A stretch of 58,598 nt of DNA from NCBI GenBank assembly GCA_022562615.1, contig JADFOW010000004.1, positions 1 to 58,598 on the forward strand, in the 5' to 3' direction. Shown here piece by piece: positions 44,192-49,931 of this stretch (positions are counted from its first letter, which is position 1; each line of letters opens with the position of its first letter). The notes beneath the pieces are model-generated. The model did no database searches. It saw only the letters and a program-made list of their open reading frames with translations, and was not told the origin of the DNA. Source of the stretch: Nitrososphaerota archaeon. Its GTDB lineage: Archaea > Thermoproteota > Nitrososphaeria > Nitrososphaerales > Nitrosopumilaceae. Made by a program: the position numbers and the translations under genes.

Positions 44192-44791
44192 ATGAAAGTA
44201 AAGTGCGATAAAGAAGGAATTGAAAAAGCAGCTAAAGTTGTTAAGGATGGCGGAATTGTTGTCTTTCCAACAGACACAGTTTATGGCATTGGATGTGACC
44301 CTTATAACAAAAAATCGGTGGATAGAATTTATCAAATCAAAAGTAGGCCAAAGACAAAACCTTTTCCTATTTTGGCATATTCCTTTGATGTTGCCTCGGA
44401 AATTGTCGAATTTGATAAAGATTCGAAAAAAATCGCTGATAAATTTTGGCCCGGTCCTTTAACTTTAATCTTAAAATTAAGAGATGAAAGATTAAAGGAA
44501 TCTCTAAATCTAAAAGAAAAGATAGCCATACGAGTTCCTAACAATCCATGTTTACTGAATCTTTTGAAAAATTCTAAATTTTTAATTGGGACAAGCGCAA
44601 ACATTTCTGGAGAAAATTCCTTTACCAAATCGCAAGATTGTTATCAAAAAATAAGAGAATATGATATTTTCTTAGATGGAGGAGATATTGAAATTAAAGG
44701 TGAGTCAACAATTTTGGAAATGGATCAAGGAAAGCCAATTATTCATAGGATAGGGAGGTTGAAAAAAGAGGAGATCATAGCATTTTTTTGA
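44192..44791 (+). CDS. Sua5/YrdC/YciO family threonylcarbamoyl-AMP synthase
   Basis: 199 residues. G-G-I-V-V-F-P-T-D-T-V-Y-G-I-G-C-D (about 20-36) is the YrdC signature. K-S-R-P-K-T-K-P-F-P-I, W-P-G-P-L-T-L-I and A-I-R-V-P-N-N are ligand-binding segments, and G-T-S-A-N-I-S-G is the ATP region. It makes threonylcarbamoyl-AMP for t6A37 of tRNAs, used by KEOPS. It is coupled to the THUMP gene (4-nt overlap) and converges with a Cgi121-type KEOPS gene. Confidence 0.88.
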   Translation: MKVKCDKEGIEKAAKVVKDGGIVVFPTDTVYGIGCDPYNKKSVDRIYQIKSRPKTKPFPILAYSFDVASEIVEFDKDSKKIADKFWPGPLTLILKLRDERLKESLNLKEKIAIRVPNNPCLLNLLKNSKFLIGTSANISGENSFTKSQDCYQKIREYDIFLDGGDIEIKGESTILEMDQGKPIIHRIGRLKKEEIIAFF

Positions 44792-45309
44792 ATTTAATAA
44801 TTACCTGCGCCAGACATCTGGAACCTGAAACGAAAGAGGAGATAACTAGAATTTTAGGAGAATTTGGGGACTCTGAACCCAAAATAACGATTACTAGTAT
44901 GTCAGGGATCCTAACGGTAAAAACAAAGTTAGATCCCATCGAGGTGGTAAAAAGAATTAGAGAGTTGATAATAGATGAACCTTGGAGTATTAGATATTGT
45001 CTTCGATTAATCCCCATACAAAAACTCTCAGAAACAAAAATTGATGAAATTGAAGAAACAATCTCAGAATTAATTGGATGCATTTCAAAAGGAGAATCAT
45101 ATAGAATATCAATTGAAAAAAGAAATTCTAGTATTTCAAGTCAAGAATTGATCACAAAAATCGCCACAAAAATCAAAAATAAAGTGTCATTAGAAAATCC
45201 AGACAAAATTGTCCAAATAGAGATTTTAGGAACAAAAACTGGTATTTCTATTCTTAAAAAATCTGATATTTTAAGCGTAGAAAAAACTAAAAGAAGTATG
45301 TCAGATTAG
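44788..45309 (+). CDS. THUMP-domain protein (Tan1-like)
   Basis: 173 residues: N-terminal L-I-I-T-C-A-R-H-L-E-P-E-T-K-E-E, then a THUMP domain (about 80-170, including Y-R-I-S-I-E-K-R-N-S and V-Q-I-E-I-L-G). It fits Tan1-like tRNA-binding proteins that help form ac4C in tRNA-Ser/Leu. Probably binds tRNA rather than catalysing. Translationally coupled to the Sua5 gene; its stop overlaps the convergent Cgi121 gene by 9 nt. Confidence 0.75.
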   Translation: MNLIITCARHLEPETKEEITRILGEFGDSEPKITITSMSGILTVKTKLDPIEVVKRIRELIIDEPWSIRYCLRLIPIQKLSETKIDEIEETISELIGCISKGESYRISIEKRNSSISSQELITKIATKIKNKVSLENPDKIVQIEILGTKTGISILKKSDILSVEKTKRSMSD

Positions 45310-46074
45310 AATTGCTGCTTTTTCAATCAAAAGATCTTCTAAAGGGGTTTTTGAGGAAATAGAATCGAGTTGTCTTTTTGTTATTTTAAAATGTTTTTTC
45401 AAAAATGATGAATTATCTTTTGAAAAAATTTCTACAACTAAAGGAGTTAATTTTCGATAGAGAATATCCAGTACCGTTTTGTTGCCTATTGCAATCAAAA
45501 TAAAATTATTTTTTTGATGAATTCCAGCCAAAGTAATTGCTTCTGCAATTTGTCTTGTGGCTGCAAAACGCATCAAAATATCAGTTTCAAGTTTATTTGA
45601 GAGTAAAATATCCTCTTTTTCTGATTTTATGGAGATAAAAAGGATTTTTTTTAAATGATATAAATTTAAAATAAAATTAATTGAAATTGCTTGTAATTTA
45701 ATTGTAGGAAATTCTTTCCTGAGATCATCAAGAAAAGAAACATTAATTTTTCTAGTTCCTTTTATTTCCACTACCTGAATTAATTTTTTTCCGGTATTAA
45801 TCACAATTTTTTTGTTTGAACCGCCGTGAATTACAGGAATAATGCTTATCAAATCACTGTTTTTTATCAAAGTCATGTTTCCTTCCATAGCAGAGGAGTC
45901 TGCACCATTAACTGCAATCAAAATATTGTTTGTGTCCAAAGTGGGCGTGTTTTTTGGTTTGATCTCTAAGAGTAATTCTAGGAGCTTTTCAATTGTAACC
46001 TCATCTATATCTAATTCTAGCTGGTCAGTTGAAAATGATTTTTTTGCTCCTCCTACAAATTTTACGGTTACCAT
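45301..46074 (-). CDS. Ubiquitin-like (MoaD/ThiS-type) protein fused to KEOPS subunit Cgi121
   Basis: 257 residues. Residues 1-85 look like a MoaD/ThiS/SAMP beta-grasp: V-T-V-K-F-V-G-G-A-K-K near the start, N-I-L-I-A-V-N-G-A-D mid-way, and D-L-I-S-I-I-P-V-I-H-G-G ending in Gly84-Gly85. The chain then continues into a Cgi121-like domain (about 90-257), with D-I-L-M-R-F-A-A-T-R-Q-I-A-E-A-I-T-L-A-G-I as in archaeal Cgi121, F-I-L-I-A-I-G and a final P-L-E-D-L-L-I-E-K-A-A. In KEOPS, Cgi121 docks on Bud32 and the tRNA 3' end. The fusion is the standout gene of this window. Confidence 0.8.
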   Translation of the reverse strand: MVTVKFVGGAKKSFSTDQLELDIDEVTIEKLLELLLEIKPKNTPTLDTNNILIAVNGADSSAMEGNMTLIKNSDLISIIPVIHGGSNKKIVINTGKKLIQVVEIKGTRKINVSFLDDLRKEFPTIKLQAISINFILNLYHLKKILFISIKSEKEDILLSNKLETDILMRFAATRQIAEAITLAGIHQKNNFILIAIGNKTVLDILYRKLTPLVVEIFSKDNSSFLKKHFKITKRQLDSISSKTPLEDLLIEKAAILI

Positions 46075-46116: not shown

Positions 46117-46470
46117 TTATTCAGTTTTTTCTTCCGAAGGTTCATTATTTTCTGAGTCATTTGTGGTGTCAACACCCACCTCAATTATATTTTCTTCTGG
46201 TTCCTTATCTGGTTCTCTTTCTATCTTTGGGGTTTCCTCAATTGGAGGATTTTCATCATTTAGCGAATCGATTTTAGCCTTTTTTATTTCCTTTTCACGA
46301 TTTTCCTTTTTTATAAATCTAGTAATATAACCTGCAATTTTATTTCTTAATGGCTTTGAGCGAATTATGGCTACCTCATTCAGTAATTTTTTATTTTCAA
46401 CAAAACTTTCACCACACTGTGACTTGTACTGGTCTAGTACTTCAAATGAAAGACGCTTAATCCTATCCAT
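46117..46470 (-). CDS. rps17e: 30S ribosomal protein S17e with acidic C-terminal extension
   Basis: 117 residues. The first 60 are S17e: V-L-D-Q-Y-K-S-Q-C-G-E-S-F, N-K-K-L-L-N-E-V-A-I-I-R-S-K-P-L-R-N-K-I-A-G-Y. The rest is a 55-residue Glu/Asp/Pro/Asn-rich tail (E-E-T-P-K-I-E-R-E-P-D-K-E-P-E-E) not found in typical S17e. It lies 42 nt upstream of the Cgi121 fusion and 31 nt downstream of the TatD gene, probably one transcript. Confidence 0.88.
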   Translation of the reverse strand: MDRIKRLSFEVLDQYKSQCGESFVENKKLLNEVAIIRSKPLRNKIAGYITRFIKKENREKEIKKAKIDSLNDENPPIEETPKIEREPDKEPEENIIEVGVDTTNDSENNEPSEEKTE

Positions 46471-46501: not shown

Positions 46502-47257
46502 CTATATTCCAAGAAAATTTTTTGAGTTTCTTTCCAGTATTGAGGTCATTTCATCATATTGTTTACCCAATATTTTCGAAGAACAAAAAATCACACTTGG
46601 AATAAAACCAATTTGAGCAGATTTCATTTCAAAACATTTTGAGAATCTTACTGGACCATCTGTTTCAACAAGAATTTTTTCTTCATCTGTTTTGGTTAAT
46701 AATGTCTGTTTATCATTTGCATAAATCATTACAGGACCATATGAAACAAAAAAATCCTTATCCATGGCCTTTCGAAGCTGTTTCTTACTACCATCGAACC
46801 AATGAAGTAATGCATGTTTTGTCTTATATGAGGTCATTATTTCAAATATTTCATCAATACTTTTTCGAGAATGAATAGAAATTGGTTTTTGATATTTTTC
46901 AGCAATAGATAAAAGTGATTCAAAAACACGAAATTGGTTTTTTTTATCTTCGTCTGATTGAATATAAGTTGGGTCTAACCCAATCTCACCAATGCCCGAA
47001 ATAATATGGATGTTTTCTTGAATCAAATTTATCATTTTATCTAGATCATCATTAGCACGTTCGGGATGAATTCCAATAAAGGGCAAAATCAATTTACTTT
47101 GTTTGGAAATTTCCAAAGTTTTTTTGGAATTTAAAAAATCCATAGACACACAACATGCCTTAATTTTCATATTTTCCATTCCTTTAATAATATAATTTAG
47201 ATCTTCGTGATAAGCAAAATCTGATAAATGAATGTGAGAATCAAACAACCAAGTCAT
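46502..47257 (-). CDS. TatD-family metal-dependent hydrolase
   Basis: 251 residues. D-S-H-I-H-L at the start, G-E-I-G-L-D mid-chain, P-I-S-I-H-S-R, A-L-L-H-W-F-D and V-E-T-D-G-P-V-R are the metal ligands of the TatD amidohydrolase fold. TatD enzymes are 3'-5' exonucleases or D-aminoacyl-related hydrolases; substrate unresolved. First gene of a likely operon with rps17e and the Cgi121 fusion. Confidence 0.85.
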   Translation of the reverse strand: MTWLFDSHIHLSDFAYHEDLNYIIKGMENMKIKACCVSMDFLNSKKTLEISKQSKLILPFIGIHPERANDDLDKMINLIQENIHIISGIGEIGLDPTYIQSDEDKKNQFRVFESLLSIAEKYQKPISIHSRKSIDEIFEIMTSYKTKHALLHWFDGSKKQLRKAMDKDFFVSYGPVMIYANDKQTLLTKTDEEKILVETDGPVRFSKCFEMKSAQIGFIPSVIFCSSKILGKQYDEMTSILERNSKNFLGI

Positions 47258-48179: not shown

Positions 48180-49931
48180 TTGGCTCAAAATGAAAGTGGT
48201 CTCTTAGAATACATTCCTGGTTCACAGTCACTGTTGATGGAGAAGAGATCACCACCACCATTAGAAGGATTTTCTGAAAACATCCAAGATAGCATACGGG
48301 AACATGCAGAGAACTCTAAAAATGAAGTTGAGAAAGGAAATAATTTTCTTCAATGGGTATTGACGAGAGTTTTTGAAGCTACAGAAGATGACGCAGCAGA
48401 TGCGATTATTGATGGACCAAATGACCTTGGAATAGATGCATATCTTCCCGTTGATTTTTCAGATAATACTATCCGTCTATTTCAATCCAAATACGGAACC
48501 TCACATTCTCTCGAAGCAATAACAAAATTCAAAGAAGATTCAAAACGTCTTCTCGAAAAGGATATTACCAAAATGAGGCCAGAATTGGCTCAGCTTGTAA
48601 CAAAAATCAAAGAAAAAAAATTGAAAATAAAATGTTGCTATGTAACCGATCAAAAAGTTGATTATGATGATGAATTTGTTGAAATTTTAGACATAGATAA
48701 AATTATTCAAAGTTTATGGGATAGAATAAAAAAACCAGCAGCGGGTAAAAAATCCTCCATAAAATTAGAAAAAATGCTTCGTTATGATAACACCATTCTG
48801 GGAATTTTAAAACTTAGGGAACTTACAGAATTTGTTAATAAAAATAGAGACTATGTTTTTGAATCAAATATTAGGCAGTGGATGCAATTTAAGACTTCAG
48901 TAAACAAAGGAATACGAGAAACACTACAAAATAATCCAGACAAATTTTTCTACTACAATAATGGAATTACGATTGTAGTTAGTGACTTTGAAGAGGTAGG
49001 AGACAATATCATAAAGCTAGATGCGCCTCAAATAGTAAATGGTGCACAAACATCTAATTCAATTCTTGATCATTCCAAAAGGACCAAAAACATGAATGGT
49101 TCCATGACAGTTACTATAATCAAAGCTGATGATGAACAAGAACAAAATAATATTACAAGATATCGGAATTCACAAAATTCCGTAAGAGGAAAAGATCTTG
49201 TTTCATTAATGGACTTTCATAAATCCATAAAGTCACAATTAAAAAATTGTGAATATTTTTATGAAATTCAAGCAGGATCTTTTGATACTAAAACAAAATC
49301 CAAACAATGTGAATACCACGGAGATTCAACATACAACAAATATCTTCCAGATAATCACAAAAAAGTGATTGTTGCAAAAGATGCAATTCAGGTTCTAGTA
49401 GCTGGAATAGAACAAAGACCTACAGAAGCATATAGTTCTCCTGCACAATTTCTTCCGCGGGGAAGAAAATACGATGATGTCTTTAATGATAACCTCAAGG
49501 ATGATTACAGAATTTTACTTTATCCATATCTTGTAAAAGAATATGCAAAAAAAGTATTGAAATATGGAAAAAAGGGTGGTCATAAAACAAAAAGATATGC
49601 TACCTTGTTTTATGTAGCAGTATACTTTAGAATTATTCATAAAAAAATCCTAGATACCAAAGGAGATTTTAAAAAAGATGCGGTAAAGCTTGAGCCAATA
49701 TTTCGCAGTTTCAAATTAAATTCTAGGATTCTTAAGATTACAGATGTCGTAGTTACAAAATTCCTAGAAGATACAATTGTTGATGACGAAATTGAAATAG
49801 CCAATACCAAACATAATTTTTTCTCACAACATGTATGGAATGACGCAATGTTAAGAGTATTAGATAAAAAAATAAAGCAAGAAGAAGAGGAAATTTTATC
49901 TTTAAAAAAACTAGTGAATAACTTGTTTTAA
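48180..49931 (+). CDS. AIPR-family (abortive phage infection) protein
   Basis: 583 residues. AIPR core: F-Q-S-K-Y-G-T near 108, F-F-Y-Y-N-N-G-I-T-I-V-V (about 257), A-P-Q-I-V-N-G-A-Q-T-S-N-S-I-L (about 282), and R-Y-R-N-S-Q-N-S-V (about 326). AIPR proteins are linked to abortive infection and often sit with restriction-modification genes; none is near here. N-terminal part may carry a nuclease-like fold (D-G-P-N-D-L-G-I-D-A). TTG start; C-terminal coiled coil. Confidence 0.78.
   Translation: MAQNESGLLEYIPGSQSLLMEKRSPPPLEGFSENIQDSIREHAENSKNEVEKGNNFLQWVLTRVFEATEDDAADAIIDGPNDLGIDAYLPVDFSDNTIRLFQSKYGTSHSLEAITKFKEDSKRLLEKDITKMRPELAQLVTKIKEKKLKIKCCYVTDQKVDYDDEFVEILDIDKIIQSLWDRIKKPAAGKKSSIKLEKMLRYDNTILGILKLRELTEFVNKNRDYVFESNIRQWMQFKTSVNKGIRETLQNNPDKFFYYNNGITIVVSDFEEVGDNIIKLDAPQIVNGAQTSNSILDHSKRTKNMNGSMTVTIIKADDEQEQNNITRYRNSQNSVRGKDLVSLMDFHKSIKSQLKNCEYFYEIQAGSFDTKTKSKQCEYHGDSTYNKYLPDNHKKVIVAKDAIQVLVAGIEQRPTEAYSSPAQFLPRGRKYDDVFNDNLKDDYRILLYPYLVKEYAKKVLKYGKKGGHKTKRYATLFYVAVYFRIIHKKILDTKGDFKKDAVKLEPIFRSFKLNSRILKITDVVVTKFLEDTIVDDEIEIANTKHNFFSQHVWNDAMLRVLDKKIKQEEEEILSLKKLVNNLF

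Follow-up and report, generated by a model that had tools for sequence, protein, structure and literature searches.

A ubiquitin-like domain fused to the KEOPS subunit Cgi121 in Nitrosopumilaceae, and its possible processing at an internal Gly-Gly

The joining of a ubiquitin-like (Ubl) domain to Cgi121, a subunit of the KEOPS complex, was described by Makarova and Koonin in 2010 as a conserved feature of every thaumarchaeal genome available at the time, with S17 as its neighbour in Nitrosopumilus (PMC2948915). They suggested that the fusion might serve to SAMPylate KEOPS or take part in tRNA modification, and they recorded Kae1 and Bud32 as encoded in all Archaea (PMC2948915). The first-pass annotation of the locus studied here knew of no described fusion of the two domains, a claim that this paper contradicts. 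The passages of the paper that treat the fusion do not discuss cleavage, the constancy of its His-Gly-Gly (HGG) motif, split and re-split relatives or a nearby Sua5 gene. In the open-licence literature we found no later study of the fusion and no reported experiment on it, and the recent archaeal KEOPS papers that were examined mention neither Thaumarchaeota nor MoaD. The architecture is already known; its reading as a precursor, together with the comparative evidence for that reading, is what is added here.

Fusions in which a Ubl with an internal Gly-Gly precedes a functional partner are known from MoaX and MoaD-MoaE, where the cut falls after the second Gly and is made by a JAMM protease in Deinococcus (PMC4326299, PMC8832034). 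In MoaX of M. tuberculosis the cut lies between Gly82 and Ser83 and is needed for activity (PMC4326299, PMC8832034); the JAMM protease of D. radiodurans cuts MoaD-MoaE, and HvJAMM1 of H. volcanii cuts linear SAMP1 fusions, with the di-glycine not strictly needed. In Caldiarchaeum, Rpn11 and JAMM process ubiquitin and SAMP precursors, the ubiquitin precursor being cut after Gly-Gly by the JAMM enzyme CsRpn11 to remove a tail that is a 9-residue peptide rather than a KEOPS subunit (PMC6043591). Urm1 and the SAMPs, which work with UbaA and NcsA, are stand-alone proteins (PMC4048286), and thiolated tRNA-Lys in H. volcanii requires SAMP2, UbaA and NcsA.

The window, by which we mean the whole stretch of DNA analysed (58,598 nucleotides of a Nitrosopumilaceae contig), carries the fusion gene on the minus strand at 45301..46074, stop codon included, with its ATG start at 46074, its stop at 45301 and a product of 257 aa. 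The plus-strand reading of this interval contains many stops, and the frame is open on the minus strand only. The strand was missing from the first-pass annotation, whose facts on the ORF were otherwise right: the translation contains Gly84-Gly85 with I-I-P-V-I-H before it, as well as the Cgi121-like stretch MRFAATRQIAEAI. Residues 1-85 (45820..46074, minus strand) make up a beta-grasp Ubl domain of the ThiS/MoaD/Urm1 type that ends in His83-Gly84-Gly85 (45820..45828), our predicted cleavage and activation motif. A variable linker (residues 86-97; 45784..45819) and the Cgi121 domain (residues about 98-257; 45304..45783) follow on the same strand. Pfam places ThiS at 6-85 (E 1.7e-6, above cut-off), a weak Urm1 match at 2-85 and CGI-121 at 123-254, the last just above its cut-off of 25 with 25.2 bits (E 2e-5). 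The NCBIfam model NF011465, 'KEOPS complex subunit Cgi121', gives 142.7 bits where 40 would suffice. Profile matches of the Ubl domain to Ta0895 and Urm1 were also obtained.

An AlphaFold2 model with 34 family members as input shows two well-folded domains (mean pLDDT 92.6, pTM 0.67) and a low-confidence joint, where pLDDT drops to 66 over residues 81-90. Foldseek matches one part of the model to Cgi121 structures of KEOPS complexes, which rank first (best E 1.2e-8), and the other part to SAMP1, Urm1 and MoaD, with E from 7e-5, and also to TA0895. Pfam/NCBIfam, AlphaFold and Foldseek thus agree with the first-pass annotation in seeing a MoaD/ThiS-like domain ahead of Cgi121, and residues 1-85 are predicted to be beta-grasp and not some other fold. 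These data confirm that the two-domain protein, a Ubl of residues 1-85 ending in His-Gly-Gly and then Cgi121, is real. Chance or an assembly artefact as the source of the fusion is ruled out by conservation of the fused ORF across the family. Stop read-through or recoding is not needed, the ORF of the window being already open, and an internal start for a separate Cgi121 in the window's species was rejected, as the alignment holds no conserved Met after Gly-Gly.

The order of Ubl, internal Gly-Gly and partner domain is that of the cleavable MoaX-type fusions, and the Gly-Gly of the Ubl domain is present and invariant, yet internal rather than C-terminal. The partner differs, since MoaE, the partner in MoaX-type fusions, is part of molybdopterin synthase and uses MoaD directly. 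We know of no Cgi121 that uses a Ubl. The Cgi121 domain has the fold of KEOPS Cgi121 (PMC7718258) and most of its contact residues for the tRNA CCA end, but bears an N-terminal Ubl. In the alignment, Gln28, Gln71, Ile72, Ile76 and Gly80 of M. jannaschii correspond to Q128, Q175, I176, I180 and G184 here, and Lys56 and Met60 are replaced by N160 and T164, so that five of the seven alignable contact residues are identical. Judged from these residues, the domain probably still binds tRNA.

The genes around the fusion fit a context of t6A formation and translation. Convergent to it lies a Sua5/TsaC L-threonylcarbamoyladenylate synthase (44192..44791, plus strand; TIGR00057, 171 bits; 101 of 110 loci), which makes the t6A intermediate that KEOPS transfers to tRNA. 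Directly after Sua5, and in all 110 loci, comes a stand-alone THUMP-domain protein (44788..45309, plus strand; Pfam THUMP 4.9e-9), whose gene is convergent with the fusion gene and overlaps its 3' end by 9 bases; it may assist tRNA acetylation as a Tan1-like partner. Upstream on the fusion's own strand are the gene for ribosomal protein S17e, directly adjacent (46117..46470, minus strand; Pfam 3.1e-16; 108 of 110 loci), and that for a TatD-family nuclease (46502..47257, minus strand; Pfam 5.1e-48; 105 of 110 loci). The S17e neighbour and the fused form are those reported for Thaumarchaea in 2010. About 1 kb past TatD and a histone gene, the window also encodes an AIPR-family protein (48180-49931, plus strand; Pfam 9e-60), of a family associated with phage defence.

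Within the fusion, the HGG motif is kept in all 131 distinct fused proteins collected in total, with 24 different synonymous codings of its nine bases. Only 13 of the 257 columns are invariant, and HGG supplies three of them. The twelve residues after HGG are, in contrast, the least conserved stretch, variable in both length and letters, with a mean column entropy of 2.13 bits in the linker versus 1.26 in the Ubl and 1.52 in Cgi121; the residue right after Gly-Gly is Ser in 81 of the 131. Caution applies to eighty loci, which were gathered by a scan with an HGG-bearing peptide as one of its two patterns; the loci from a genome search made without this pattern agree on the invariance of HGG. 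Of the roles that the first-pass annotation had considered for Gly84-Gly85, whose conservation in homologues is hereby established, that of a cleavage point is favoured and that of a structural relic is disfavoured by this invariance. An invariant Gly-Gly tail characterises Ubls that act through a free C-terminus. We consider it probable, at roughly 0.6, that the fusion is a pro-Ubl precursor from which a JAMM protease, cutting behind Gly85, releases the Ubl and leaves an ordinary Cgi121.

The distribution of fused and split genes bears on this reading. In a first search, 35 of 37 genomes of the window's family matched the fusion, one match being a fragment cut by a contig end; named homologs come from Nitrosopumilus, Nitrosarchaeum and other Nitrosopumilaceae. 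In a search of 300 genomes of the order, every member of the window's family matched at 1e-50 or better except seven (G002, G019, G167, G280, G283, G293 and G299), and among the matches listed those in the family at this threshold are single open frames. Two of the seven, G019 and G280, form genus g11 and gave no match to the fusion, to its Ubl part or to its Cgi121 part. From G019 the genus seemed to have lost NcsA together with the fusion, an idea that was rejected when G280, also without the fusion, was seen to keep NcsA. Outside the family, genus g51 of family f8 is also fused (six genomes, three of them single-contig), and in most of the other genomes looked at Ubl and Cgi121 are adjoining separate genes, so that a scan for fused and split architectures finds the fusion in Nitrosopumilaceae and the split form in most sister lineages. 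In these split relatives the Ubl frame stops at HGG or 1-9 residues beyond, and the two genes are often in frame, a stop change sufficing for fusion. A different joining was seen in G046 (C62, frame at 1376, 286 aa), in which a Ubl ending in HGG is joined to a phosphoribosyltransferase-like domain, with a separate Cgi121 downstream.

Inside the fused family, two genes have been split again, both with the break just after HGG and both domains intact. In G163 (99% complete, 10 contigs), the sequence reads CAT GGA GGT GCC TGA TTG. The Ubl therefore ends in HGGA, Cgi121 can start at the adjoining TTG, and a possible ribosome-binding site for it is the GGAGGT within the HGG codons. In G144, the Ubl ends HGGGKNKRKL and Cgi121 lies in another frame, its ATG overlapping the HGG codons. 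The tree places both genomes among fused relatives. Although either break could be a sequencing error, two breaks at one short joint with the domains intact speak for separate parts that are functional. The tree, built by a quick method and with long branches, implies at least five switches from one form to the other, counted without regard to direction.

Alternatively, the protein may stay uncut, with the Ubl permanently attached to KEOPS for docking or regulation and HGG as the binding site of a partner such as an E1, a JAMM protein, NcsA or a ribosomal protein. The stability of the fusion across the family would suit this arrangement, as would the N-terminal strand of Cgi121, which lies close behind the Ubl in the AlphaFold model, and the retention of HGG where no E1 is found. 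Against it stand the two lineages re-split exactly at the joint and the other lineages that are split, the linker that varies in length and letters after Gly-Gly, and the association of an invariant Gly-Gly tail with Ubls whose working form has its C-terminus free. We regard a permanently uncut protein as unlikely.

Genes for the predicted release and use of the Ubl were searched for across the family. JAMM proteases occur in 36 of the 37 family genomes first searched, two in most, and the HxHP...PSxxD motif is kept in 19 of 20 JAMM loci inspected. NcsA was found in 34 of the 37, including genomes in which no E1 was found, and may be independent of the Ubl of the fusion. That the fusion could tie tRNA thiolation or conjugation to t6A formation, as the first-pass annotation had suggested, stays a conjecture. 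In the window's own genome NcsA is intact and two JAMM proteases carry the full motif (NES...HSHP.....PS..D), whereas no E1 was found in the 95%-complete assembly. The likeness to Urm1 and the SAMPs thus extends to fold, Gly-Gly and the NcsA and JAMM partners, but those proteins are stand-alone, and a part in thiolation or conjugation is here a candidate role. Of the 136 good genomes of the family, about 104 have a Ubl-E1 gene, and in about 32 it was not found. Those without it are mostly scattered tips beside E1-bearing genomes on the tree, and their absence of E1 may be recent or partly due to assembly gaps, because all 24 single-contig genomes have E1. HGG is kept in the E1-less genomes looked at; as proof of a role independent of E1, this retention is weakened by the same scatter and the same 24 genomes.

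Other Ubls of the family share the arrangement. In a set of 61 genomes, each family match to ThiS belongs to a long frame that also encodes Cgi121 or E1, and among the matches listed nearly all Nitrosopumilaceae Ubls stand at the N-terminus of a longer protein, fused to Cgi121, E1 (internal ...PAVAGG-) or MoaE, with the Gly-Gly inside the chain. The exceptions examined among the matches listed in the larger set were the two re-split genes, G166 and G147. In G166 (C13:5692-5808), the usually E1-fused Ubl has a gene of its own that ends exactly in PAVAGG*, and E1 lies on another contig. In G147 (C43:159299-159529), a MoaD-MoaE fusion with internal Gly-Gly, from a member of the Nitrosopumilaceae, resembles mycobacterial MoaX. 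JAMM, Ubl and E1 genes adjoin in G040 (C90:5944-7377) and G044 (C54:6937-8628), Ubl and E1 being one frame in G040. In G011 (C5:1244-2464), JAB and ThiF matches share one 463-aa frame of a JAB-E1 type unlike the family's Ubl-E1.

The near-universal JAMM proteases, the many genomes in which E1 was not found and the retention of HGG in its absence would also be compatible with a switch, in which the fusion is a built-in form of Ubl-modified Cgi121, inactive in KEOPS until JAMM removes the Ubl, so that t6A is regulated and the freed Ubl has little further role. Such regulation is reported from H. volcanii, where HvJAMM1 and SAMP1 act reversibly on molybdopterin synthase (PMC4443979). The inactivity of the fused form is, however, an assumption of this explanation, split relatives produce a Cgi121 without Ubl, and the terminal HGG on their free Ubls would be left unexplained. 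For these reasons we hold such a switch to be quite improbable.

One small genome (G050, 82% complete) has a fused Ubl-Cgi121 frame (at 688 of C77, 308 aa) in which HGG is lost, the sequence there being TLHCSAF; searches of this genome for E1 and for JAMM found neither. This HGG-less frame and the adjoining, often in-frame genes of relatives would suit a structural relic, a stop lost between neighbouring genes with Gly-Gly as a mere flexible hinge, but H, G and G are kept in every one of the 131 proteins with varied codons while the hinge behind them drifts, and the missing partners of G050 fit a loss of function there, which makes a relic very improbable.

The precursor cut at Gly-Gly is the reading that we prefer, and the constant HGG against a drifting linker, along with the split and re-split relatives, makes it specific and easily tested. 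We infer the cut itself from the analogy with MoaX, with JAMM proteases acting on MoaD-MoaE and SAMP1 fusions, and with the Caldiarchaeum precursors, the cut at the present fusion being predicted. Also counted in its favour are the other Ubl fusions with internal Gly-Gly, the near-universal JAMM and NcsA genes and the low-confidence joint. Counted against it are the roughly 32 genomes without a detected E1, the window's included, the lack of a strict di-glycine need in HvJAMM1 and the presence of NcsA where no E1 is found. In the proposed sequence of events, translation would yield a Ubl ending in HGG, a short variable linker and Cgi121, and a JAMM/MPN+ metalloprotease, for which the window's genome offers two candidates, would cut after Gly85. 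Once free, Cgi121 would join Bud32-Kae1-Pcc1 and hold the CCA end of the tRNA for the formation of t6A. The released Ubl, with its C-terminal Gly-Gly exposed, would be a carrier of the Urm1/SAMP type; most plausibly it would deliver sulfur for the NcsA-dependent thiolation of wobble uridines, modify proteins, or do both. It is a candidate sulfur carrier because thiolated tRNA-Lys in H. volcanii needs SAMP2, UbaA and NcsA. That thiolation is its main use is a tentative suggestion, on balance somewhat doubtful. Joint synthesis would hold Ubl and Cgi121 at one-to-one, and cleavage may control KEOPS.

It is conceivable, at slightly less than even odds, that the Nitrosopumilaceae produce practically all their Ubls fused to the N-terminus of Cgi121, of the cognate E1 or of MoaE and need JAMM to release them, with the supply of Ubl one-to-one with KEOPS. 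If true, such JAMM-released fusions would be an archaeal counterpart of the ubiquitin-ribosomal-protein precursors. The fused, split and re-split forms provide natural experiments. If the precursor reading is correct, two tRNA modifications of the anticodon loop, t6A37 and probably s2U34, would be tied to one gene, and ammonia-oxidising archaea would make a relative of ubiquitin as eukaryotes do, within a translation-related protein.
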